Below, one piece after another: positions 8,722 to 62,270 of a DNA stretch of 64,000 nt (positions within the stretch are counted from its first letter, which is position 1; every line of letters starts with the position of its first letter). The notes under the pieces are model-generated. The model had not been told where the DNA came from and made no database searches. It was given only the letters and a program-made list of their open reading frames with translations. The stretch is from contig JARUPZ010000002.1 in assembly GCA_031213475.1 (NCBI GenBank), positions 6,395,049 to 6,459,048 of the forward strand, given 5' to 3'. This DNA comes from Nereocystis luetkeana (taxonomy: Eukaryota > Sar > Phaeophyceae > Laminariales > Laminariaceae). A program made the position numbers and the translations under genes.

Positions 8722-11700
8722 CCGAGAAGATAACGACAATTCTGCCCCTCCTGGCTGCGGTACGGCTATCTGTGATCTATGCTGTGACTACTGCTGATTG
8801 CAGGGACACGAGTCAGGTCAAGCAGAGGGTGATGCAGCAAGAAAAGGACCGGATCGCTGGGATACGGGCGAGAGGGGACGATCAGTTGTGGCTCTCGCGC
8901 CTCAACCTCCGGCAGGTGCCTCATTCAACTCTGGAGCTATGATACGATAATATCAGATGATATTACCAGTATATTATATGATATGATATTATATTATATT
9001 ATATGACATGGTATGATATGATATGATCTTGTATTATATGATATCATACTATATGATTTTATATGAATATTGATGTCACGGCTATGTTTTTTTCGTTTTT
9101 TTTTCCCCTCAAATATATCGAACGTCTCATCAAAAAAGATATAATTCATTCAGTAGTTCACCCCTCCCCTCATTCGTGTGAGTGACAGTTTTATGACAGA
9201 CCGGTATTAGACTCTACAGTAGTAGTGGCATACGTGCGGAGTGAGTAACGAATAGGTTTAGTGTACGTATCACACTCGGGCACAGCTAAAAGTGGTTACC
9301 ATCAAGCAGATAGCAAGACAGTGCAAGCTGTGTACATGACTGCGCGACGGACTGGCAGTGTTTCGATTAACACAGCGGCCTAAAACATACTGCCGTGTCA
9401 CTCCGATAGATAGGGCATACAAGCACCATTTGTGCCCTGGTACCAATATCAAACGGACAGCATATCCCCGGTCAGATCATAGTGGTAGGGGATAGGGCAT
9501 GCCTTATAGGGCATGGGGCATGCCTTACCCTACTGCTGTACTTCCCTTAAGCTGGGGGAAGCCAGAGATCCTTCGGGTAGGTCCGCCCGTCCGACCGAAA
9601 AACACTCCGTTTTTTTTCTTGTTCAAGTGCCTCCTTGCACCAGCTGACAACAGCTACAAATAAATGCAGTATCCTATAGACGTATACACCAGCGACTTTT
9701 CCGGGTTGGCATAATATGTAGTAAGAATCAGAACCCACGAAGGGCGCAAGAAGCAGGTATGCCCTTACGTTTGCACACCATATTGGGTTGTGATTGTTAT
9801 CTTTACTACAGTATGTTCTCCCCCGATCGTGTTAGTACGAACAGCGAGAGCTAGAATACCGCACCTTCGCATATCTGTGATGCTTTTTTATGCTATGCAT
9901 TTACACCTGGTATGCCTGTCATTCTAGTAGTGGTGGAATGCCGATCAGGGGTTTCCACCACGACATCAATGCCCATTCCAATGCCCATGCCACCAACAAC
10001 AACACACCAACCCGGAACGAAGCAGAAAGAGAGAGAGAATGAACCTTTTGCCGACCAGTTGCCATTATTATCAAGAAGAATACCACAAACCCATACGCCC
10101 CCACTCCCATTATTAGCGGAAGAAAAGAGCCGCAATTCGTCGTTGTCTGGCGAAGCTATACACGACACATATAGCGACCTCGTCGTCTCTCTCTTTATCG
10201 TGTGTGTGTGCGTGTATGTATGCATGTATGTATGCATGCATGCATGCATGCATGTATGTATGTATGTATGTATGTACGTATGCATGTATGTATGTATGTA
10301 CGTATGCATGTATGTATGTATGTACGTATGCATGTATGTATGTATGTACGTATGCATGTATGTATGTATTCATGTATCTATGTGTCACTCGCTTTGCCAT
10401 ATAACTGTCTTCGCTAAGGTCCCTGCTAAGTACTACGAGGAGCGAGAGCGACGGGAAAAGCTCGTGGACGTTGTCTTGCTGGATCTCCAGGACAACCGCC
10501 TCGTGGAACTCCCAGACGGCTTCTTGTCGGAGATGGTTTCCCTCAGGAAGCTCAACATCAACAAGAACAGGTTGGTTCGGAAACGTTCGCCGCAGCAATG
10601 TTAATCTTTCCGTGCCGGTTTTTCCAGACTTCGAGGCGACGTGATGATGGGGACTAGATGGGGGCGGTGTTGGATGGCGAACGCAGGCGGTACGAACCCA
10701 GGCAGTACCGGGGGGGGGGGTCCTCATTATCATGCATGGCCGTAGTCGTGTGGCCGTAGATCCTCGGACCCCTACAATGCCGGGACGGAGAACATCGTGG
10801 TTTCACCGACCAGGTAGACATTTGCTTGCTTGCACCAAGCGCGAAGCGCCGTGAGATGTTCCTACTCAGAACTGCTTGTGAGGAGGGACTTGGGTATGGA
10901 TGACAGCTTCAATGAGTCAATCTATATGGCTACCTCCAGAGACAGCAATGAGGACAGCTACTATTTTCGATAGTGGTGAGAGGAAAGGTGTAGGCCCCGG
11001 GTGGCGTGGCTCTCGGTTTTGGCCGATGTAGGTCCCGCGCGATTCCCACGCGCGGCCTTAGTGGTAGTTTTTTTGTCGTCGCAGGCCTTGCTTCTGAAAC
11101 CGAAACCACTAATTCAGACCTGGTCCTAGGGAGTTGGAGTCGCAGCTGGCCAGAGTGCTTCAACGTTGAGCCGGATTTCGGAGATGGATATCTCGCTCTC
11201 TGACGGATGTGGCGGCAGCCGTTTTGTTTCCTACCAGGTACATCTTCAGCGGCAATCAAGTTCCGTGGTAAAACATTTCAACAGGAAAACGAAAACATCT
11301 TCGCCACCCTAACCCCCCCCCCCCCCCCCCCCGCCCGCTTCATGCTCCGCTCCGGGTGCTTGTCTTAATCTCCTACCACTGCGGTGAACGCCAACCCCTC
11401 CCCCCCCCGCCCCCAAGGCTATCCTTCTTGGGCGGTGAGCACTTGGCCAGTCTAGAGCAGCTCCAGGTGTTAAACCTTAGTCGAAACGACCTGAGAGAGC
11501 TACCGCCGTCGCTGGGGAGACTGAGCAGGCTACAACATCTCAACATCTCAAAGTAAGCCTCTCGTCCGCGACCTACCCTGCCCCACGTGCCCCACCTTAC
11601 CCCACGTACCCTGCATATATACTGCCTACTATACGAGTATGTATGTAGTATTAATACAGTACACGTAGCTGTTGCCAGAAACTCGCGCACTAGAATGGAT

Positions 11701-16011: not shown

Positions 16012-19000
16012 GCATCTGCTTGCTATCGTCGTGTCGCGACAAGCCACCGCGCCCTCAAACGCATCGCACGGTATGACAGACTGTGTGATAGACGATGTTT
16101 TTAGGCGGTATGACAGGTGGTATGACAGGCGGTATGACAAACGGTATGGCAAACGGTATGACAGTCGGTATGACAGACGATATGACAGACGGTGTTACGG
16201 GCGATATGGCAGACGGTATGACAGACGGTGTGATAGACGGTATTATATGTGGTATGACAGACGGTATGACAGACGGTATGACAGACGGTATGACAGACGG
16301 TATGACAGACGGTATGGCAGACGGTATGACAGGCAGTATGACAGACGATACGACAGACGGTATGACAGACGATATGACAGACGGTTTGACAGACGGTGTG
16401 ACGGACGGTATGACAGGCGCTATGACAGGCGGTATGACAGACGGTATGACAGACGGTATGACCGACGGTATGACAGACGGTATGACAGACGGTATGACAG
16501 GCGATATGACAGACGGTATGGCAGACGGTATGACAAACAGGGGCAACACCTACCGCGCGTGTTCTGAACTCTATAAACATCCCCTCACTATCGTAAGCTT
16601 ATACCGGTGCACCCAATCACTATCAATCCCATGGCCTAAGTACATGCCCAACGAAAAGAACGAAAAGCATTGCAAATAAAATACACCAGGGCCCAAAAAT
16701 GGAGTAGCACAGTTAGTATTTCAGTATTAAGTATTATACTTCCTCGTCAGCTGAGGAGCCCGATCTGATATCAGTGATATCAGTGGTATCAGCGACTGAT
16801 GATAAATTGTAGCGGCACCTGGTAAATGTTTGTTAACTAAAAAGTGTAAAACCTCCGCCCCCCTCCCATCACCGTACGTACGACGGCCCCTCACCCTCGC
16901 CGTCAGTATAGCATTTGCAGGCAGCGTGTGCAGCAGCATGTGCAATGCATACCCCCTTCGCTTCCGCTTCGCTGCCCCTTCCTACTCTTTCCTATCCCTT
17001 CTTACCCCTCCCTACCCCTCCCTACCTCTTATTTTCCGTTATTGCCGATTATTACCAGTTTTCTTTCCCTTCTTACCCCTTCCTATTACCGCTTCCCACC
17101 CTTTATTTCTCGCCCCTTCCTGCCCATTCCTATTCCTTCATACTGGTTCTTCCCCCTCCCTCCCTCCTGCTAGCCCCTATTTCTCTACTTACCCCTTCTT
17201 ACCCCTTCCTACCCCTTCCTATCCCTTCACACTGGTTATTACCCCTCCATACCTCTTCCTACCCCTCCATACCTCTTCCTACCCCCTATTTCCCTATTTA
17301 CCCCTTCTTACCCCTTCCTACCCCTTCCTATCCCTTCATACTAGTTATTACCCCTCCATACCTCTTCCTATCCCCCGTTTCCCTAGTTACCCCTTCCTAC
17401 CCCTTCCTACCCCTTCCCATCTCTTCTCACCCCTTCTTTACCCTTTCCTACTCCTTCCTACCCCTTCCTACCCCTTCCCATCTCTTCTCACTCCTTATTT
17501 ACCCTTTCCTACTCCTTCCTACCCCTTCCTACCCCGTTCGTTTTCTTTGAGGCGAATCGCATCGGAAAGATCTCTCCCACCATCGGCGATTTGTCGCAAT
17601 TGCAGAAGGTCAACTTCCGCCGGAATCTGATCGACGACCTACCCCCACAAATCGGGCTGCTCGCAAAGTACGTGTGAGCGTGCGTGTGTGTGCGTGCGTG
17701 GGAATACTGTGGGTGAAGAGAGGAGCACCCATGATGTCAAATTTCGCGGACATAAACAAATGGACCTGCTGTTGGGGGGACGCTCCGGGCAGATTCTCTC
17801 TCTTGCTTGGATTTGCTTGGTCTTGCTTGGTTGTGGTCTGCAATGGAGTACACGCCGAGGTGTTACGGTCTTAGTCCGTTGGGCTAAAGGCAAAAGGTCA
17901 ACCAATCTCCTACCCAATCTGAGCCTCACAACACTCTCACAACAGAGGTGGGCGGGTCGGTGCCTCGGGTGTCTCTCCGCGGAACGGAGTGACAGACCTT
18001 GGGGCGTGACCTTGAAGTTGTACGTAAAAACGTCGGTACTACCAGGGGAAGGGGGAGCTGGAGCTACACTTAGAGTACTGGAAAAGCGTACGTTTGCGTA
18101 TAGCGGGTGGATCTCTTGTGAGCGTATTTGGGTCGCACGCAAAATAGAAGGTCGCGTCGGGGTAGAATCAACCACACCAGTCATCAGTACCACGGAGATT
18201 GCCAATGAAAACAGGGTTTGCTACCCATGGCGGAAAAAAGAGAAAACTGCTCCTCCACCACCACCACCACCACCTCCGTCTCTCCTAACAATGGCGGTCA
18301 AGATTAGAAACAAATCAGTGGGATGGTGGTCTCGCACAAAGTTGAAATAGACACATACCAGGTGTATCTTTCTGTTCTACTTCGTTTTTGGCTCGGTTTT
18401 AGTATGCCCGATCTCGTCTGTCTACAGTAGGCCTCCGAATCTGTCGTCGTAGGGTGCCCTTCTTTGCTGTGTATGTGTGTGTTTTTTGTGTACCCTCGGC
18501 CAGCCATGTGTTGTTTGTCTCGAGTGCATGGGCCCATTACAGGTTTGTCGTGTGTGTTTGGACCGAACGCGAGTTACGCCATGTCGACTTGCGGTCCAAT
18601 CGACTTTGTCGTGCGAACCAATCGGCCTATAATAGTAACAATCGTGTGGACCAAATGAACTAATCTTATGGTCCCGTCGGCTTTATTGTGTGAACCAATC
18701 GGCATTGTCGGGCGGACCAACCAATAACAGGGCGTATACTTGCGGTCCAATCGAGTCAACCGTGTATAGACCAATCAGGTTTCACGACGTAAACTTGCGG
18801 TCCAATCACCTTATTAACCGCGTGGACCAAAAACATCTTACACAATGTGGGGTTGCTGGCGGTCCAATCGGTTCAATAGTATTAACCAATCGACTTTTAT
18901 TCAAGTGGACCCAATCCAACCGATCACAACAGGCTACACGATGTGGACTTGCGGTGGAATCGGATCTCCGCCATCCCGGACGAGATCGGCGCCTTGGTGG

Positions 19001-50093: not shown

Positions 50094-51749
50094 TACTTCC
50101 GATTATTATTAGTTTTCCCTTCCCAAGATGGGTGTAATTTTAAAGGGGTTTTCACAACACGTGCCATTTGAAACGCCCGAACAACCGAGCTGTGCGTATA
50201 CACTTTTTTTCTTGCCGTGAAGGACCATTTAGCTGTTTCATGAAATTGGATTCCCCTGTCCGGGCGCTCGCTTCGTGTCGGTTGGCGCTCCAAGCTTTCG
50301 CTCAAAAGTGAACAGGAGCAATACCTACAGCAGTAGCTTTCTGTCGTTGAGCAACTATGTACGCCTACGAACACTCGAATACAAGGAGAGTGTCGAGTCG
50401 AGCGAGTGGATTATTAGTAGTTGGTAGTCGAGCAGTACGTAGTCGGGTGTAGTCATATACACTATTTAACACCAGGTAGTGCATGAGATAGCCGAACTTA
50501 TTCGTCGACGCAGTGTGTACGAGGAACCAAGCTCAGCGTACCGGTGCGGTGTAACGGGGTAACCGGATACCAGGTAAAGCATGATGGCCAAGGCCCCAGG
50601 CTAGCCACCGATTCCTGACGATTGGACCAAAGACATTTTTTTTACTCCTCTGATGCAGAAACACTGTACAAATACGATATAACCGCCTATAGACTAACGC
50701 CTAAATCTACCCCCCCCCCCCCCCCTTTTCCCCCCCTGGGCAGTGGCGGGATCCGTGCTGCCGCTGTATTCTGGTCTCGTGTGCTCGATGGATATGGTCG
50801 AAGCTCAGCAACAGAATGCAGTTACGTACGAAAACTGCTGTTTGTTCCTGAGTAGAGCCTCTGATACGATGTATCCGAGAGTACCACCGTGGACTGCGAG
50901 CGCACACCGTACCCCTTTGCAGTGTGGCAGGCAGGCAGTGTGGCAGGCAGGCAGGCGGTCCCTCCGTGTTCACCGAGAGCGAAAACTCGTTTGCGGACTA
51001 TGCCGGTGGGTGCAAGAACAGCTCGATCGGCCGAAAGCACCGCCGCTCTTTTCTTTTTCGATAACATCTTGTTCTGTACCAGGTACTAGTACAACAAGTG
51101 CGAAAGCGACCAGCACGAAGTCGCTGTCGTTTTCTGAACGATGTCCAACATTCATACGGCAAGTACAGCAGTGCGCTCACAGAAAGCTCGACGCGAGGCA
51201 ACACCGGACAACCCCGAGTGGAGGAACGAAAGCAGACCAGCCTGTAGCAGCAGTGTACGAGTACGTGGACATGTACCGGTACGATGCATGCAACCCGACT
51301 GCACATATACACAATGACGACCAATATTCGTTCGGCGATTACAATCACGACTAAAAATCATGACAATGTTATTAATAGTAAATAAATAACATGACAAATA
51401 TCACGATTACTATTAATAGCTGTGATGCTAGAAATCCATGATCAGGACGAAAATCAAGAAATTGCCTCCCACAAGTAAGTATTGTTTTGAAATAGAGACT
51501 CTAATCTTTGATCAAGCGATACACATAATTCGTAGACGTGAAGTGGGATTCCTCGCCGAACTTACCGAGCAGAACCATAAGGCTTCCCAGGCAGCGGCGG
51601 ATGACATGTGTGAGACCACCTCCGCGAGCGCGTGGCCGTGGTTTTCTTGTACTGGGATTTATCAGCCGCGGTCAAATAACCGAGGTAAAAAATCACCGTA
51701 AAAAATATACCCTTCGAAAAAGAAGTATTTTTTTGGCGGAAAGCGAGAC

Positions 51750-51996
51750 TAAGGTTCATTCTTATCGGAGAGCGTTTTTTCCATAATTTCCAAAGTTTGG
51801 GAATAATTGGAGATATGTATCAATATACGGAGGCATTCTGTGACTATTCGTGAAATTCTCCAGAACCAAAAATATCAAGTTCTTTAACATTCCAATATTT
51901 GGAAAAAAAAAAACAGGAAAATATGGAAGATTGAAAAATTGGGCGAAACATATGTCGAAAATTTGGAAAAAAAGCTCTCCGATAAGAATGACCCTA
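51750..51996. mobile_element. MITE family F (Stowaway-like), copy 2
   Basis: 247 bases, TIRs TAAGGTTCATTCTTATCGGA and CCGATAAGAATGACCCTA. It is the reverse complement of copy 1 along its full length, with small differences, and TA at both borders. Confidence 0.88.
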
Positions 51997-52749
51997 AATT
52001 CAGGAAAAAAACATACCAGGTGCCTGTCAATACATACCGGATGCCTGGTAAAATAACCAAATATCTTGACCGTGTTGACCAGTAACTTTCAAAATCGGGA
52101 CAAACGTTGGGCCCGATGTAAGGCGACCAAGCGGCTTAATTTCGCCCTATAGTCGTCCTCGCCGAGAGGAAAAGACACTTGGTGCCCGCACTATTAGTAT
52201 TTAGGTGCACCGACGTAGCAGCGCGCCCCTATATAGCTGAATAGTACCTGCTCTATCTGGTACCGGGTGCATAGCGACTCGGGAGCAAGGCGATTCGCGA
52301 CACGCAAACAACACGATTCGCCTCATATGGGTGGGTATTCTGTGCAGCCGTGAGGCGGACAAAATACCTTTTGGGGTGCCAACTTTGAGGTTTGGAGCTT
52401 CGACAGTACGTTTGTCCTGCAACAGTTTATGCACAGGTCGGGCGGTTTCTCGCAAGCTTTACGTCCAGCTCAACACCTGCTCGTCAGGATCATCTACGGC
52501 AGAGCGCAAAAAGCTGTGGAGCTACGTATATACAACTTGAAGCCCACTGGCGTTCTTGCAGTTTTCAGATTATTTATATACATACATTACATGGTCTACC
52601 GTACGTAAGCACTGCGGTTTGTGTCGTACCGCCCATTGGTACGAACACTACTTGATCTACATGAAGGAACATCTGAAGCCTCGGCACCTACTACTAATAG
52701 AGTCACGCCCCACTTATACTGGCCCCCAAAACACGACCCACAAAAAACG

Positions 52750-55700
52750 CTACCGCTCTGATATGAACGCTCCAACGTCCATCTTTTCGGCCGGCCTCTG
52801 GGCATAGGCCCTAATGAAAGCCAGTTTTGCCCTGCGCAACGCATGGCACGCCTCGTCGTTGCTGCTCGCTTCAGCGTACTCTTCCAACTGGCCGAAGGGC
52901 ACCAAGACATTTGAAAGAAGTGGCGGAACCCCCCCCCCGCTCTTCGTGCCTTCTTCTACCTCGCTTTGGTCGGAGGACGCGCCGGGTATACTTTCCTTCG
53001 CGCCCTCTGCGTCAAACTTGAAATGCCCGACACGGTCTACGATCTCGTCCTGGGCATCGAGCCGCAAGGCGGTGACGACGTCTTCGTGGTCTTCTATGAG
53101 CGCCCAACTCTTGACGGCGGCCATGGCAGTCGCGTCAGGAGCATGGCCTGGCGTGATGCCAAGCTCAGTCAACACCTCGCACAACTCTGCGTCATCGGGA
53201 CCGCCCCCCACTCTAACGCCGCTACGGCGTACGCTAACACTCAAGCAGGTGAGACCATCCTTGAGCTGCTGCATGGGCGAGTCTTTGCTACCCTTGGGGC
53301 TATCTCGAGCTGCGGTTTGTTCCAGACTAACATGCATGGCCGGTGGAAGCGTGTCGGCCTCGAGCCAGCACCTGTGGTGAGCGACCAAACCACACCAGGG
53401 AGAAAAAAAAGTATGAAAAGGTATAAACGTGTCACCAACATGAAGGTTACTTTATAAACCCTAACGCGAAGTCGAAAAAGTATCCAGTCGACAAAACCAT
53501 GCTTCGTCAAAATACTGCAACAGCCACAAAATAGATGCTGTGCGTGCAAATACCATTGCTTAAACGCGAGTCCTCTCGCTGCGAGCCTACCAGAGCAAAC
53601 GCTACTCGGCGCATGCAGCAGACGGGACAGCAACGAGCAACGAATGCAAACTAGAACCAAACCCATCGTTTCTGCAGGACTACTGTACCGCAGTACACTT
53701 ACCTGGCGATCGAACCTTCCGTCACACCCTGCCACGCTTCGTAGAGGATCTCTGCCGCATCAAGTACATGCGGCGGATGTCCCTCTGCGAGCCCCGCTGT
53801 TCCTGCCTGCATTTTGCGTTTCTTGGCCTGCTGGCGCAGCTGCTCGGTGTTGTGCATCGTGCCCACTCGGACCCCGAACAGCTGTGCCCTGTAGCGAACC
53901 TTGGCCTCCGCGATGACCCCCATTTCCACCGGCTGATGCTTGCTGGTGCAGCTCGCCGGGTAGTTGACGACGGTCACCTGTCCTCTGCCATCGATCAGAT
54001 CGCTGTGGGAGCCGCCGCCCCCCCCGCCAACGATCAGCAGCACGGGCTCGCAGGTGTGGCGGCGGGCGTACGGAAGAAACACGCCTTCCCACCAGTTTTG
54101 GAGGGTGACGCCATCGGGCCAAGCGTTGGTCTGCTGGAAATATTTGACGGGCGGCTGCTTGTGTCGGAAGCAGCGAGGGTTCTTGGACTCGCCGATGATC
54201 GCCAGTGGCACTTTCGCGGACCCCGTGGCGTTAGTGCTTATGTAGGCTGACAGACGATCCTTGACCTTCATATCCTGCGTGCCCCGCGCGGTCGGGCGGT
54301 TCTGTGGGCCTGCCAGATAGGCTCGCTTCGGCAGCAGCTTGTAGAAGAGACCCGTCTCGCCCACATTGAAGACGTTTTCGATGTCGTGCGATTCGCAAGC
54401 ATCACGGACGGTCTGAAGGCAAGCTTCAGTGTCTTTTGCGTTGAGTCTGCCCGCTTCTCCGAGAAGCACCTCGCTCTGGAGTCCGTTACGCTTGACAAAG
54501 GCCTGCACCCATCCCTGGCTGGCCGTGAACGCCTCCAAACTGCTCCTCTGCCGCTCTGACAGGCCCGTGGATGCGGCAAGCATGTCCCTAGCGCTGAGCC
54601 CGAACATATGGATGACGTCTTGGGTAATCAGTATCCCGGCTTTCCTAGCCTCTTGCAGCAGGATCAGGACGCGTTCACTCACCTGCACAAATATTCAGGG
54701 CAGTGGACGAATTCAATACGCTGTGATGATACAGTATAATGCTGAATACTGTTCCTAAAGAGTAGAAAGGCCTGTACGTATTCGTGATACAACATACCAG
54801 GTATTATTCTCACGGAGGCCCATCGTAAAAGGGCCCAAAATAAGCCCCAAAACACCCACTTTGGTACATGCACATCAAGAACTACTACGTGAATCGAAAA
54901 CATTGTCAGTGCAAATTTTTGCGGTTGGTGCCGGGCTTCCCATCGATCCTACATTTGTGTTCTTCATAAATACATTGGGAAGCCTCTCTCCCCCCGTTTT
55001 GGGCCTGCATATTACAGTAGAGGCCACCGTGATAATACTGCACGCTGCATGTTGATCACGTAGTTAGTGCTACTACTGCAGCAGTGCTTTGGGTTAAGCA
55101 GTAGGAGTGTTACAGTAATACAGGGTACTGCTTTGGTACTGCTTTTGGTTGTTCCTGTACCATACAATCCGGGACAGAAAACGGGGTCTCCCTGTTGGTT
55201 TGTTGTGCCTCGAAGAGCTGAATTCATTTTTCTTCACCGTCAAATGGCGGAAAGTCCATCGGTGTACCGTTTTATCGCTTTCGCGAGGCATTACGGACAG
55301 ACACGACTGAATTTAATTTTCCGTTGAGAAGACCCAAGGTAAACATAGGGAATATGTACAAAAACTAGAGCTGTGATTCGGCACGGCTCAAGTCAGGCAG
55401 ATAACGTACCTCCCCAATATTACGTCTACAAAATTGTTACCACTATTAATACTGCTGTTGCGTTTGCTCGTGCGTGCGAGTAACGTACTGGCGGGGTTTC
55501 GTGATTTATTTAGGCGCTTTTGTCCGGGGATACCTCCTAAATATCCCCTGTTCAGGATTAAAAAAAGTATGGAGGTGTTTTTTTGGAACGCTATTATATC
55601 CTCCTCTCCCGAGGACATTGTTGTAAATTCCCCCGCGCCCGAGAGGGTCTACAGTACGTACTGTATCGAATTCCAGTAAATAGCGGACATTGTGTTACTC

Positions 55701-58700
55701 CGCCCGCCACTCCGCTATATGTGTCACTATGAATAGTACAATATGTTGTGCACCCAAGACAACAAAATGGTGACATCGCTATAGAGGTTGTTGTTGTTCT
55801 CACATTAACTCATCGCCACAATACAGTGCAGTCCGTGGTCGCAGGACAGGCTCCAATAACACTCTGGGGTAGAAGAAATACCTCAGTAAAAAAATAAAAA
55901 AATAAAAAAAGCGAAGAGTAGTACACATGATAACTGAAGCACATCTATACCTCAGACAAAACATGAAAAAGGAGGTCCGCGCACGTACGTATCAGATACA
56001 TACGGTACGCCGTACAAGTCGCCACAGAAACCGAGAAGACCACATACTGCCCAGAAAAAAATAGACAGGATGAAAATAACAACTCGACGTCGAAAAATCG
56101 AAATCAAAAATCGAAATAATCACACACATCCAAAAGGGAAGCAAGAGAAAAAAAAGTTCAAGTCAGGCAAGGAAGCAATAGAAAGCTACGGGGGTAACTA
56201 GAAAAACAAGAGGGCACCCGTAGCAGGATCAATCGCACTTCAAGTACGGAAGAGAGTAGAGCAGCGGGAGCAGCGAGATAATCAGAGTTCATAGATATCG
56301 GGCGAAGCCCAGCACGAGCAGGGGAGAGTCAGGCGCCGAGCAGGGAGCGGCGTAGATCCATCAGGCATCGTTTTTTTTTTGGGGGGGGGTTCGGGTTTGG
56401 TTCTTTGTTTTTTTCCCACCCACCCTCCCGTACTTTCCACGGCGGACGGGCAAACGGAGGGGAAGAGGGCAGAGCACGTAGGCGGTCGATTTTCGTGGTG
56501 ATCCGATATGAGCGGATCATCCTAATCGTTTAGCAATCGTGGTGGGTTCCCGATATGAGCGGGCCGTTAGATACGGTAGACCACTCGAAAGCACGTGTAC
56601 GTAGTGGTCGATTAGCAGTGGTTTTCCCGATATGAGCGGGCCGTTAGAAAACGGAACCATTGCACTGAATAATCGTTTGGCAATCGCGGTGGGTCCCCGA
56701 CATGAGCGGGCCGTTGTCACGGTAGACCACCCGAAATGCACGCGCAAGTAAGTACTGTTGACTGCCGTTGTCGAGGTGGTCCGATATGAGCGGGCCATCC
56801 TATTCGTTTAGCAGTCGTGGTGGGTTCCCGATATGAGCGGGTCGTTAGATGCGGTAGACCACTCGAAAACACGTTTAAGTAGTGGTCGATTAGTAGGGGT
56901 TTTCCCGGCAACACGGGCCGTTAGAAAACGGAACCACTACAATGAATAATCGTTTGGCGGTATGGTGGGTCCCCGATATGAGCGGGCCGTTGTCACGGAA
57001 GACCACCGGAAAAGCACGCGGTACTAGTGGTCGGTCAAGTGGGTTCCCGAGATGAGCGGGCCGTTAGAAACGGAACCATGAGACAGTTTAGCAATTTGTC
57101 AGATTCTCGATTTGAGCGGGTTCCTCTGGATTGCCCATGCACGGTGGGGGGGGGGGGGGGGGAGGAGTTCCATTCGCGGAGCGCGACCGCTAGGGAGGTC
57201 GGCCGCGTTTTGTTTTGTGTTTTCGGGGAAGGCGTTAACACGCGGGGGGGAAAAGGGGCGGCGCGACCCCTTCCCCCCCCCCCCCCCCCTTCGCTATTCG
57301 TTATTGGTGAAGGGGGAGCGGACGCACGCGGGAAAAGGAGCAGAGCAGCCCCCTCCCCCCCCCCCCTTCAACTGTTTTCATAATTCAAAGCATCTTTCGT
57401 GGAAGTAACATCCAAATAGTACACATGATAACTGAAGCACATCTACACCTCAGACCAAACATAAAAAAGGAGGTCCGCGCACGTACGTATCAGATACATA
57501 CGGTTCGCTGTATAAGTCGCCACAGAAACCGAGAAGACCGCATACTGCCCAGAAAAAAAATAGACAGGATGAAAACAACAACTCGACGTCGAAAAATCGA
57601 AATAAAAATTCGAAATAATCACACACATTCAAAAGGGAAGAGAGAGAAAAAGTTCAAGTCAAGCAAGGAAGCGATAGAAAGCAAGAAATCAAGAAAGGAT
57701 ACACACAAGAGAATGCGCAAACATTTCGCAGATTGGAGGCTTGCACGCATCGCGAGGGGTGTCGAAGAGATGTCAGAACAACAAAAAAAAACAAGCATAC
57801 GCACTTCGCCACTAAGAACACCAGGGAAGAAAAAAAGAGACTAGCAGACAAAAGACAAAAAGGAAGACGAAGCGGAGCAAAAAACACACAAGCAGAAGCA
57901 GATAGCAAAAAACAAAAGCAGATAGCATAAAGTAAAAAAGCAAAACGGAACATACTAACAGAGACACAAAGAAGTACAAACGGGAAAGAACGAAATACTG
58001 GTATGAAAAGAAGGTGGATCTACTAAAATTTTCAGGCCCAACCATCATGGACGGTAGTAACAGAATGGTACGTCCAGATTGTAATTTATGGCATCATGGT
58101 AACGTGAAGTTAAAGTCAGGTATTTAATGAGAGGAACCTGGTAACATGATAAACCGGGTCAACATGATGCTAAGAGACACGTCGCCACTTAGGCTAACAT
58201 CCCGATAGTGTTACGTATTGGCCGGCTCCGACGCTGCTAACGTACGTCAAGTGTTACGTTATCCGACCCTACGGCAGCAAGACGGGGGGTACCAAAGACG
58301 TGGCGCTATTAGTGCTGGCCACTATGTTGATGGTATCTTAGGGCGTTATGTCTAATACCCCCCTTAGTGGTAACGCAATGTTAGGGTGTCATGTCGGACG
58401 ATCCTTAGACAGTAACGTTAAGTTATCAAGTTATCATATTATTAGTACACCGGCGGATATAGATTTGGGCACGTAAGGGTGGAAACGTTCATGTCTGGAC
58501 AACATCCTAACATTGCCAATCACGGCGTCATATATAGTGCTACCGTACCAGAGCCGACGAGATCGAGCCGAAAAAAAACGCAAAGGCGAGTGCACGTTCG
58601 TGCGTTTGCAGTTAACCCTTTTAGGCCCGTAGTCCCGTTTTGGGGACCAACTACTTGAAATTCGAGTGATTTGTCCCCAAAACAGGACTGCGGTCCTAAA

Positions 58701-59650
58701 GGGGTTAACGCTACTACACAGCAGTATGTTACCGCGTTACCGTGATTTGCTCCTCAAGTACTATTAATAACACTCTGTTAGGGCGTGGCCAAGTCGCCCT
58801 GTTAGGCCCCATAGCGTCGATACGTCTTATCCGAGAAGTACGGTATCCGAGGTGTGATCAAATTTATCGGAATAAATCCGCGCATTATAGAGCAGCGTTA
58901 CAACAGCAAGATCAGCAGCGGTGTATACACAGCAGCAGCAAACTTCCCGTGGGCCCAAAATTCACAGGAGCACAGGAGGAATACGTGGGAGCGTAAGCCG
59001 CAGAAACCTTGTTACAATGTATGTACTGCATACGATACGGCCATACCATGCTTGATATATACGGCACTACAGGCAAAAAACCAAGAGCATGATGATGTAT
59101 GATACACGCAAAACGATCTGCCCGTCACGCTCACCTCGAAATGCTGCGAAACCCGCAGCGACTTCATCTGTCCAGCCTCTCCTGGTCTGTTGCTGGCGGC
59201 GAGGATTTTCTTCTTGTCGCTGACGCATCGCGCAACAACCCTCTTGCCGCAACCGTATTTCTCAGCGAGCGCTGCGTGCGAAGTACCGTTCTCAACCTCC
59301 TCCACAATCTGCGCCTTGGTGTGAATAGTCAACCTCTTGCGAGTGGAGCTCTGGCACGGCTTTTTCTTCGTCGCGCCGGCTGGAGAGAGTCCAGCAGAGG
59401 GTCCCAGCTGCTCGACGAGCTTGCGCTTTCCCTCGTCCGATTCCTTCCCCTTCCCCTTTGAAAAGCTAGCCGCCACACACTGCTGTGGGCAAACGCGATG
59501 CGTTTCGTTGTCGCCCTCGGGGTCCCGCGCGCCGCAAACACCGTGCAACACACCTCCGCAATGCGCCCGGCACGCATGAGTAGGGGCAGGCACGTTCCCG
59601 AGGGACGTACTCTTCGAGACCACGCACGCGTCGCCCGCGGGGCACGACAT
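52750..59650 (-). CDS. Pogo/Tigger-like transposase-derived protein with altered catalytic triad (~705 aa)
   Basis: Three exons: 59650-59135, 54682-53703, 53371-52750 (stop). Phases 0 and 2 match, with good sites (GTGAGC, GTAAGT; TGTGCAG, CCACAG). Exon 1 holds a basic/Ser-rich leader and a CENP-B/Psq-type helix-turn-helix (RKRLTIHTKAQIVEEVENG, then AALAEKYGCGKRVVARCV). Exon 2 starts with a CENP-B-type HTH (LEAFTASQGWVQAFVKRNGL) and continues into a DDE_1 domain. There the first Asp (family NxDETGLF) is Gly in NVGETGLFYK, the second (family LLxDN) is Gly in LLIVGGGGGGSH, and the third (QPLD) is Glu in HQPVEMGVIAEAK. Exon 3 starts CWLEAD, like the family's NCFRKAG, then adds ~200 acidic residues. 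No internal stop, host-type introns (one 4.4 kb, itself full of repeats), and lost triad point to a domesticated DNA-binding protein. The start ATG is the first in frame and could differ. Confidence 0.85.
55798..55891 (+). repeat. Repeat D, copy 2
   Basis: Matches 41089-41178; followed by an A-rich stretch (AAAAAAATAAAAAA). Lies in the 4.4-kb intron of the transposase-derived gene. Confidence 0.85.
55919..57682 (+). repeat. 266-bp direct repeats flanking a 1.2-kb segment with a tandem array
   Basis: 55919-56186 and 57417-57682 are direct copies, by eye over 90% alike (both start TAGTACACATGATAACTGAA, both end GATAGAAAGC or close). Between them lie 56187-56505 (no feature seen) and the array at 56510-57115. 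The right copy carries a basic, Lys/Arg-rich open frame (57425-57844) that is broken in the left copy and has no known domain. Confidence 0.8.
56510..57115 (+). repeat. Satellite-like array with GATATGAGCGGGCCGTTAG words
   Basis: GAGCGGGCCGTT and close variants occur about nine times, spaced 60-90 bases, alternating with GGTAGACCACTCGAAA and AACGGAACCA words. A higher-order unit of about 270-290 bases is repeated (56530-56760 resembles 56810-57000). Confidence 0.85.
58612..58708. mobile_element. MITE family B, copy 3
   Basis: 97 bases from TTAACCCTTTTAGG to CCTAAAGGGGTTAA, near-perfect palindrome. In the large intron of the transposase-derived gene. Confidence 0.9.
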
Positions 59651-60874
59651 GTTGCACGGAGAGCCAAGAGTTGCTCGCTCAATTGCTCAACTATGAGGTC
59701 GCAGGAACAATGATGGTCAGGAGGGCCGGGCTGCGTGCTCTGGTTACTTTTTCTTGTGTGTCGATGTTCGTGTAAATTATCAATAGTGAAGAAGGCAACC
59801 ATTAGCCTTATTAACTGGTACGGTACTTAGTACGTATGTTATAAGGCAACACGGTAATAAGTCGACTGTCCTTTTAAAATGGGCATGCTGCTTTAAGTGT
59901 AAACGTGTAAGTGCGAGGCGAGTCGCCTTATTCAGGTCGCCTTACAGATTGTGGTCGCCTTACGCACATACAGCAGCAGCAGTACTCGTAGCTCGTATTT
60001 CCTGACCACAGAGTTTGTCTTGATGATATTCGTACGTATCTCTCTGATCAGTGATGAAGAACCAGCACGGCTACAGGATGTGCAGGATGCCGATGGGTAG
60101 AAAGAACACACGCAGCTTACTTCGTTACGGTCAGCGGTGTGAAGTTGTCGGCAAACAGCAGTACAGCAGTCCTACGTACGAGCACAGCAGGCGGTACGTA
60201 ACACCATCGCGATCCATACTCGTACCATAGGAAAACGAAAATTTGAAATTCAAACCGAGAGTATTTATTCTTCGTGCATGTACGAGTACGAAGCATATGT
60301 GGCGGATCATGTGATGGTATGAACCAACCAGCTGCATAAAGCCATGGAGATTCAAGACAGTGCAATGCTTTACTGAATACCAACTCACAGGTGGAACCAT
60401 GAAGGCCGCCACAGAGGTGAAGATGAGCAGAAAAGTCCTCCGTCTCAGCCAGACAACGTAGTCTTTCAGAACAAAAAGCGCATCATCGAACATCATATGA
60501 TTCAGGACAGCAGACACCGCAACAGAAGTAGCCCCAGCCCCGAGCACAGGACAATCTTGCAAAAGCGGAACCAGCGCAACCAACCGCGGCAGATGTCAAT
60601 CAAGACAGGTCGCTGCAAAAAGCGGTTGGTTCGCCAGCTCGTTCCTCGAAGCAGGGCTCAGGAAGAACTTGATACCCCAGGTCCGGGCGGTGAAGTAAGA
60701 AGACCAAAGGGGGGACAGAGGAGAAGAGAGAGCGCTCGTTTAGCAAGGTTTTACTAAATCGAAAGGCATTTTGCGAAAGGGGCAGCCCAAACCCATTCCA
60801 GGGCATGAGCAGGACGTTGGGCCGCCGCCGCGTGTTGAACCAACATGCGAAGAGTCTCACGTCGTGCGGGGAGC
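59651..60874. other. Divergent intergenic region, no gene seen
   Basis: 1.2 kb between divergent starts at 59650 (-) and 60875 (+). Several short motifs (GTCGCCTTA, CAGCAGTACTCG) recur. Open frames at 60117-60583 lack support. Nothing else is recognised. Confidence 0.5.
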
Positions 60875-61192
60875 ATGAAGTGCTGTCTTTTTTGCTTGCT
60901 GCTGCTCACGGGTGTGGACACGTTCAGGATTCGAGTGGAATCGTTGAGGCAGAGTTCTCTCGGACACTCTACCCAGCAAACAAGGCGTCATGTTCCGTCA
61001 AGAGTGGCCTTTGGAAAGAACACGGACAGTAGCAGGCGACGGAGGCGGGGAGCTAGAACGGCTGTCGACGTGAGCCCCATGGCCGTGGGCCCGGGCATGG
61101 AGAGTGACTCGCGAATACGGGGCGACCCGGCGGCGTTGGAGCGATGGCTGAGCGGCGGTGGAGGGATAATTGGTCCTGTTGTTTTGGAAGGT
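60875..61192 (+). CDS. First exon of a plastid-targeted protein (continuation uncertain)
   Basis: The ATG at 60875 gives MKCCLFCLLLLTGVDT-FRIR, a signal peptide with Phe at the predicted cleavage site, then a Ser/Arg-rich transit-like stretch. An in-frame ATG at 60845 would only add a polar leader. The exon stays open to a donor at 61191 (GTGTGA) or 61193 (GTGAGT). Its last residues, ERWLSGGGGIIGPVVLE, resemble the opening of SET-domain methyltransferases of the Rubisco LSMT type, but the match is too short to rely on. The next 2.5 kb holds a MITE and two hAT fragments, so they would sit in its first intron if it continues at 63722. Confidence 0.5.
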
Positions 61193-61362
61193 GTGAGTCA
61201 CTGCTATAAACCAGGTATTAATACCAGTTTACCTGGTATGTACGTGCAGCAGTACGTATTGTAGATGAACATGATGCAACCGCCTTCTCCCATCTCCCTT
61301 ACCAGGTATATGATACGTACCTATCTGCTTGGAAGTACGTACCAAACAACGCGTCACCAGGA

Positions 61363-61575
61363 CCTATGATACCAGGTACCAGGTACAGCAGTATTTGAGC
61401 TACTACCGGGGATCATCAGAGTAACCAGGACCAACCGTGCCTAGTAAAAATACTGGTATATAGAGTTTTTTGTGTGTATGATTGGTCCTGATTACTACTG
61501 GTATATTATGCTCCCCCGGCCCCCGGTAATGTGATACCTGGTACCAGGTACCTGGTAAGTGCGTACCAGGTACTC
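61363..61575. repeat. Cluster of TACCAGGTA / TACCTGGTA words around MITE family A copy 5
   Basis: TACCAGGTACCAGGTA lies at about 61369, and TACCTGGTACCAGGTACCTGG plus GTACCAGGTAC at about 61535-61572, on either side of the MITE. These are the densest occurrence of a word found throughout the window. Confidence 0.75.
61402..61530. mobile_element. MITE family A, copy 5 (diverged)
   Basis: TACCGGGG...AGTAACCAGGACCAA and TTGGTCCTGATTACT...CCCCCGGTAAT form inverted ends related to copies 1-4 (GGACCA next to AGTAA), with several substitutions and a longer right end. An older copy. Confidence 0.6.
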
Positions 61576-61682
61576 GGATGCCAACAATTCTGAACAAGCA
61601 CGCCAAGGAATCAGTCGAGGTGCACGCGTGCTCGGTGACTTCATTTAGATCACTCGCGGGGCAAGTGTCCCGCGCGCTGTCA

Positions 61683-62270
61683 ATAAAAACCCGCTGGCCT
61701 CGACAACGCCGCAGCGGTCTTGTGTGGCAGAAGCCGAACAACAAAAAGTCGGACCTTTGGTCTGTGGATCTGTGGATGTTTTTCCTCGACGTACATAGGT
61801 CCCAGGTATGTATATGGAGCAGAGGGAATCAGAAGAACAAGCCGAAATGCGAGGTGGAGAGCTTCGCAAAACCCGTCATAGTGGCACAGCAGCAGTCGAC
61901 ATCGAGACTTGTCCCACAACATGGCCTGCCCTCCACAGGGATCATCTTGCCGAACCCGAATACGTCAGAAAAGACGCACGCGCATGCAGCAATCGGAAGA
62001 AGAACTCGAGGTCGCTATGAGGGCATCAAGGGGTTCATGAACGAAGGACGAGGGTGGTGTACATCAGCAGCTAATTATTGGTTTCATCGTCGGCGGACAC
62101 AAGATAATTCCTGTGCTGGAGGAGGAGGGCTTTCAGGCGATGGCGTGAATTCACCAGGAGGGCAAAGCCTGCAAATATGCGTGCTGGAAAGACCATGTCT
62201 AAGGTTGCGAGCCGAACTGCGGTCGTGGCAAGGGATAGCTTGCAGGCATGTTGGCTGGTGAGGATATTTG
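61683..62270 (+). pseudogene. hAT transposase fragment, decayed (copy 1)
   Basis: Runs parallel to the second copy at 63050-62470 (opposite strand): GCCTCGACAACGCCGCAG, CGTGTGGCAGAA-type words, TCACCAGGAGGGCAAAGCC and AACTGCGGTCGTGGCAAGGG match positions in the other copy. The frame is interrupted several times. It stops before the region that would hold the first catalytic Asp, at GGCTGGTGAGGAT, where similarity ends. Confidence 0.6.

Follow-up and report, generated by a model that had tools for sequence, protein, structure and literature searches.

A probably domesticated pogo/Tigger-like transposase gene with a Gly/Gly/Glu catalytic triad in the brown alga Nereocystis luetkeana

Within a 64,000-nucleotide stretch of the 465-Mb Nereocystis luetkeana assembly (the window), a minus-strand gene at 59650-52750, made up of three exons (59650-59135, 54682-53703 and 53371-52750), encodes a 705-residue protein that, judged by its DDE_1 domain and double DNA-binding domain, belongs by descent to the pogo/Tigger-like transposase family. 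Domestication of this gene is probable, not proved, and we assign a probability of about 0.62 to the reading that its product is a cleavage-dead, DNA-binding pogo protein, one that would recognise DNA but should not cut it. On this reading an old brown-algal pogo/Tigger-like insertion would have become an immobile single-copy gene, kept for its DNA-binding protein.

Gene structure and catalytic positions

Exon 1 (59135..59650) carries the start codon, a zinc-finger pattern and the CENP-B_N helix-turn-helix (HTH), exon 2 (53703..54682) carries HTH_Tnp_Tc5, most of DDE_1 and all three catalytic positions, and exon 3 (52750..53371), which aligns to the Laminaria digitata protein P0001, provides the end of DDE_1, a C-terminal region and the stop codon, all on the minus strand. 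Intron 1 (54683..59134, minus strand, 4452 bp) is in phase 0, with the donor GAG/GTGAGC at 59135/59134 and the acceptor TTTGTGCAG/GTG at 54683/54682, and intron 2 (53372..53702, minus strand, 331 bp) is in phase 2, with the donor CCAG/GTAAGT at 53703/53702 and the acceptor CACCACAG/GTG at 53372/53371. Donors and acceptors follow the consensus at both introns, both exon junctions are backed by an unbroken alignment with P0001, and the G+C content at third codon positions is 0.72 in the gene versus 0.47-0.48 in its introns. A preliminary description of this DNA had given a complete three-exon frame of about 705 codons with no stop and with clean splice sites and phases, and this was borne out in coordinates, strand, exon count and protein length.

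Pfam recognises DDE_1 (PF03184) at residues 313-501 with an E-value of 3.5e-24 and CENP-B_N at residues 104-152 (59195..59341, minus strand) with an E-value of 8.5e-7, above the cut-off. With HTH_Tnp_Tc5 at residues 180-242 (54473..54661, minus strand; E 3e-4), which scores 21.1 bits against a cut-off of 22.2, the two HTH regions and the DDE_1 domain of the preliminary description were all recovered. The Pfam matches are well outside what chance would give, and a structure model of the protein shows the transposase fold.

The acids of DDE/D enzymes hold the metal ions needed for cleavage. Where relatives carry Asp, the window gene has Gly280 (GGC, 54359..54361), Gly391 (GGC, 54026..54028) and Glu425 (GAA, 53924..53926), all on the minus strand, at the first, second and third catalytic positions, and its motifs NVGETGLF, LLIVGGGGGGSH and QPVEMGV align with NVDET, LLIMDG and QPMDMG; the triad thus reads G/G/E in place of the D-D-D of an active pogo/Tigger transposase. 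All three catalytic acids had been described as replaced, and the three substitutions stand, with the qualifications that the third residue is itself an acid and that the second Gly, lying in a run of glycines, is placed to within one residue. With the first two Asp residues changed to Gly, the RNase H-like core, though predicted to fold normally, should on the evidence of sequence and model not hold the catalytic metals, and cleavage should be lost. The last two catalytic positions are 33 residues apart in the window gene, as against 31 in the D/D/D relatives P0016 and P0017. According to the accessible part of PMC7386202, 29-36 residues separate the last two acids in Tigger, and the double CENP-B_N and HTH_Tnp_Tc5 set is named for Tigger and pogoR.

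At the N terminus, the residues C3, C9, C27, C31, H36, C39, C54 and C58 (59477..59644, minus strand) form a zinc-finger pattern that was absent from the preliminary description, read from the sequence with the spacing C-x5-C-x17-C-x3-C-x4-H-x2-C-x14-C-x3-C over residues 3-58, which we take to be of the C4HC3 (PHD/RING) type. Assignment to a known Pfam zinc-finger family was rejected, every Pfam zinc-finger model falling below its cut-off in the six query proteins. With loosened spacing the pattern occurs in all 12 loci scanned in the same genome, including the window's own (L037); these loci had been chosen for their match to the family or to exon 1, and in several of them a single ligand or the final pair is missing. 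With stricter spacing it occurs in 3 of 128 proteins (P0001, P0008 and P0048), most of the 128 being without exon 1. Its presence in family copies and in relatives indicates that the pattern belongs to the transposon family and has been kept in the window gene.

Stepwise loss of the triad and the age of the introns

Relatives came from a protein-database search that found 175 proteins, 120 of them listed, and that included only frames of at least 0.55 of the query length. Six exon-2 open reading frames (ORFs) in public assemblies are 66-91% identical to that of the window, the remaining listed rows reaching at most 55%, and named relatives among the matches listed include Laminaria, Ectocarpus and Pylaiella. 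Since the six are absent from the matches in this genome, we take them as sequences of other species. P0023 (91%) has the triad G/G/E, P0020, P0021 and P0022 (79-80%) have G/D/D, P0017 (68-69%) has D/D/D and P0027 (66-67%) has D/E/D. Of 89 rows, 57 entered a tree from which the triad columns were excluded; in it the seven close sequences group with a support of 100/100, the five with Gly at the first position with 100/99, and the window gene and P0023 with 100/99. These nested groups point to nested losses, first of the first Asp and then of the second and third; the first would have been lost in an ancestor common to at least three other lineages and the other two in an ancestor shared with P0023, the change at the second position of P0027 being a separate event. 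All five Gly-first sequences, the window's included, are open over exon 2. Viral and prokaryote contigs scanned for relatives gave pattern matches, none of them confirmed.

The preliminary description had read the long first intron as a sign of long residence, and as an argument for domestication this found no support in comparison with the relatives. With splice positions in relatives read from protein letters, a stop follows SIAR (SIVR in P0022) at the end of the exon-2 ORF in each of the seven close sequences, and in DDD relatives at ∼50% identity the ORF continues as IARY, which fits an AG/GT donor placed at that codon in all of them; a CAG/GT acceptor likewise fits the QV close to the start of the exon-2 ORF, P0017 beginning too late to show one. 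A decayed family copy on C22 has all three exon regions, ordered as in the window gene and spread over ∼3.1 kb. Because the splice positions are common to DDD relatives, both introns appear older than the loss of catalysis, and we rejected them as a mark of domestication. Transposons of Ectocarpus have transposase genes with many introns, according to the accessible part of PMC12477816.

The tandem repeats reported in the 4.4-kb intron are present, and direct repeats accompany them. Two direct repeats of ∼270 bp (window 55919-56190 and 57417-57680), 94-95% alike and ∼1.2 kb apart, enclose eight 35-nt repeats around CGATATGAGCGGGCC, an arrangement that resembles a small element bounded by terminal direct repeats. 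A 49-bp inverted repeat with arms 84% complementary and a 1-nt loop lies at 58611-58709 in the same intron.

Copy number, worn ends and constraint

Matches in the assembly were counted among the best-scoring candidates only, so that family counts are lower bounds, but any nearly identical copy would come out on top. Exons 1, 2 and 3 each match the 465-Mb assembly once at 100%, the next best reaching at most 58% for exon 1 (at least 33 others), 56% for exon 2 (at least 10 others) and 65% for exon 3 (at least 59 others). The window gene is a single copy and immobile in the assembly, an unassembled copy being possible, and its flanks are unique except for short dispersed repeats and relic matches.

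The preliminary description had pointed to terminal inverted repeats (TIRs) and TA duplications as features to look for around the gene, and of these a degenerate left end alone is present, in place of the TIRs and TA duplication of an active pogo/Tigger transposon. This fossil TIR, which lies 3' of the gene (52100..52133, plus strand), was located with a profile of seven relic ends that resemble TACAGYSGTGRTCCCG, some matching it incompletely; by this profile, position 52100 on the plus strand is fourth of 127,934 window positions, behind 56614 (in the intron tandem repeats), 38265 and 33195. No right TIR was recognisable for the gene (best profile rank 296) and no TA target-site duplication was seen. 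The subterminal motif GTAAGGCGACC occurs at 52118..52128 (plus strand) and twice, inverted, on the 5' side (59935..59945 and 59953..59963, minus strand), these three being its only occurrences on both strands within 50501-62000, and the 3' flank (52314..52548, minus strand) is 61-78% similar to the 3' flank of the decayed relics L067-L072. The insertion seems old, with worn ends and a probable span of ∼52.10-59.97 kb, and the end remnant is that of an old immobile element, which sets the locus apart both from a recent transposon and from an undisturbed host gene. Just outside, at window 51750-52000, lies a high-copy repeat resembling a miniature inverted-repeat transposable element, with 39-bp inverted ends and, among the best 40 of 2,922 candidates, 39 other copies at 92-96%.

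A fossil left end with an inverted subterminal motif is also what a dead transposon copy would leave, open by chance and decaying without function, its close relatives being dead copies in other species. The genome does hold decayed relatives of the 3' part (61-84%), and many of the relatives of exons 1 and 3 are brief fragments or contain stops. We nevertheless consider this explanation unlikely, given the state of the frame. From branch lengths and the codons of the window gene, about 109 missense changes are estimated to have accumulated in it since the ancestor in which the first Asp was already gone, and without selection 5.2 stops would be expected since that loss, yet the 705 codons contain no stop or frameshift (P 0.005 for the stops); adding an indel rate, itself an assumption, makes the joint probability far lower. 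Across exon 2 of the five-row Gly-first clade 7.6 stops are expected and none is seen, in a database that shows long frames only. The open frames of all five sequences speak against a dead copy in the same way, as does the condition of other family members in the genome: the decayed copy L004 has a shifted frame at the end of a branch of just 0.07 changes per site, and 13 of 28 DDE_1 matches contain stops. A further copy, L002 (C35), has the triad D/G/D and a stop within its exon-3 match.

Several observations weigh against domestication. Decayed relatives would escape a database listing of long frames, and the orthology and host species of P0017, P0020-P0023 and P0027 are themselves deduced. 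When change at sites conserved among the transposons is set against change at variable sites, comparisons of the window gene with the four other members of its clade give a ratio of 0.53-0.80, as against 0.47-0.65 for two decayed copies (four comparisons), 0.34-0.45 among P0020-P0022 and 0-0.28 for intact-looking transposons; being like that of decayed copies, as a dead copy would have it, the ratio does not indicate strong constraint in window exon 2. Measured from the node at which the window gene and P0017 part, the tree path is 0.33 to the window gene and 0.08 to the intact P0017, a difference of ∼4-fold. Single triad changes are also found in P0019, P0038, P0042, P0047, P0061, P0065 and P0068, so that triad loss alone is no proof of domestication, and the Asp to Glu change at the third position leaves an acidic residue. 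HTH_Tnp_Tc5 falls 1.1 bits short of its Pfam cut-off, and DDD relatives have the same two splice positions. A conserved-site test gave p 0.008 in the five-row clade, failed its decayed-copy control and was not used as support. Identity to P0020-P0022 is 76-85% in the HTH and 80-83% in the DDE regions, which diverge alike, and a fair statement is that the window gene appears to combine retention of its frame with relaxed sequence constraint.

A related DDD family appears more recently active. L003 and L005 (C1), with Asp at the readable catalytic positions, are ∼46% and ∼56% identical to window exon 2 over the aligned parts and 99.7-100% alike over their shared 288 and 395 bases, which indicates that a young pogo-like DDD family moved recently; in the tree it is sister to the window gene, not its parent. 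Around L003, L055 (C1:12363650-12366266) has exon 1 and both ends, with matching terminal repeats (the family ends being TACAGTGGGGGnCCC) and TA at each, is internally deleted and stops near exon-2 residue 279, and around L005, L056 (C1) is 5'-truncated, begins near residue 142 in exon-2 numbering and has exon 3. L055 was rejected as a complete autonomous element on account of its deletion, L056 having no 5' part, and no complete autonomous copy of the family was seen in this genome. The young family is like the window gene in its finger and exon 1 (L055), DDE_1 exon (both copies) and exon 3 (L056), and unlike it in being DDD where readable, in the terminal repeats and TA of L055 and in having near-identical copies. 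Four other copies of ∼2 kb, 88-92% alike, namely L057 (2278-4270, C40), L058 (1617-3567, C1), L059 (2360-4384, C12) and L060 (1684-3478, C1), have ends like TACAGTGGGGGTCCC and join the zinc finger, HTH and C-terminal region, the DDE core being absent; the joined frame is open over 317 amino acids in the C40 copy (L041/L057) and shorter in the other three, and may encode an element-borne repressor.

KP-type repressors are an example of transposon-restraining proteins, and the window gene could likewise be a transposon-encoded regulator, a cleavage-dead binder that competes for transposon ends, restrains related elements and is kept by conflict. The core-less copies L057-L060, with their one 317-residue open frame, and the recent mobility of the DDD family, seen in its two nearly identical partial copies, are in keeping with such a role, which we find distinctly improbable: the ends of the young family are unlike the fossil ones seen in relics of the window gene, the exact 16-base relic-end pattern occurs at 5 places genome-wide, so that few matching targets seem left, and the mobility of L057-L060 is presumed. 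The single copy, the worn ends and the few matching relic ends favour the host over a transposon family as the beneficiary. A large set of binding targets was likewise rejected, given the 5 exact matches.

Proposed function and place among pogo-derived genes

If the window gene is a domesticated DNA-binding protein, it would most likely work as a sequence-specific transcription or chromatin factor, acting on sites that its own transposon family left behind. The two HTH domains would bind a specific site, as in CENP-B, and the zinc finger and C-terminal region may mediate contacts with proteins or dimerisation. The order CENP-B_N, Tc5 HTH and dead DDE_1 is that of CENP-B in the accessible part of PMC7386202, and CENP-B is the sole solved sequence relative with E below 0.01 (1hlv, E 4e-4). 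That the gene encodes a centromere- or satellite-binding protein, a brown-algal CENP-B equivalent, is nonetheless very hard to credit: this domain order is common among mobile pogo elements, and putative centromeres of Ectocarpus are marked by long terminal repeat retrotransposons (accessible part of PMC11541908). The CENP-B dimerisation domain was not among the four Pfam families at E ≤1, a search that a diverged domain could escape. We found nothing that points to centromeres, and the centromere role suggested in the preliminary description gained no support; its proposal of an independent domestication kept the support of single full exon matches, an open clade sharing the first loss and brown-algal kin, and lost that of the introns.

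In vertebrates, the domesticated pogo/Tigger transposases CENP-B, jerky and TIGD have CENP-B_N, HTH_Tnp_Tc5 and DDE_1 in common with the window gene, and several have a damaged triad. The window gene differs in its separate brown-algal lineage, the zinc finger in front, two element-inherited introns and the loss of the first two acids with a conservative third; Ka/Ks figures are those of the vertebrate genes. Vertebrate pogo-derived triads include DD34S in TIGD2, DD34N in TIGD7, DD32G in CENPBD1 and DD32D/E in JRK (PMC7386202, Table 1), and several of these vertebrate genes are without the third acid (accessible parts of PMC7386202 and PMC7325037). Domestication of pogo is reported above all in animals and fission yeast in the accessible part of PMC7325037, and the titles and abstract openings searched mentioned no brown-algal pogo transposase that had been domesticated, most subscription papers lying outside that scope. 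SETMAR/Metnase is unlike the window gene in being a mariner with a SET-domain fusion and 9% sequence identity, rows within 1 Z counting as ties.

A second clade, with a support of 100/100 and separate from that of the window gene, comprises L006 (C31; D/D/S), P0001 (Laminaria digitata; D/D/G) and P0060 (D/D/R); P0082, too short for the tree, has Ser at the third catalytic place. Frames are open in each of the three exon regions of the C31 gene, whose own conserved-site ratios (0.38-0.65) are no clearer than those of the window gene. The C31 gene and P0001 share the architecture of the window gene and extend catalytic loss to more than one species; they differ from it in their clade, in the loss of the third acid alone and in a finger and HTH that are duplicated in exon 1. 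At C31:4991519-5003569 (L061-L062), this sister gene with the duplicated exon-1 finger and HTH has a first intron of ∼9.5 kb. It is a tentative proposal, to which we give somewhat less than an even chance, that a single zinc-finger pogo family was domesticated in parallel on two or more occasions in brown algae, the window lineage passing from DDD through G/D/D to G/G/E and the second losing its third acid in several species, which would yield cleavage-dead, zinc-finger-bearing DNA-binding proteins comparable with the vertebrate CENP-B, JRK and TIGD set and independent of it.

Around the window gene, Pfam matches in ten neighbouring ORFs were weak (leucine-rich repeat and YbgU), none exceeding the cut-off, and offered no synteny anchor. 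The leucine-rich-repeat match at window 10479-10577 on the plus strand (LRR_8, E 1.3e-4, below the cut-off) is perhaps a host-gene exon, and at 16106-16535 a 12-bp tandem repeat of 36 copies leaves several frames open on both strands.

The window gene would represent a further pogo-derived case, in a separate lineage and with what appear to be unusually complete intermediate stages. If our reading is true, relatives at each stage of triad loss, together with a recently mobile sister family in the same genome, would permit a direct test of the sequence of changes that turned an active transposase into a host protein, brown algae would gain a candidate sequence-specific nuclear protein, and pogo domestication would extend to another multicellular lineage.

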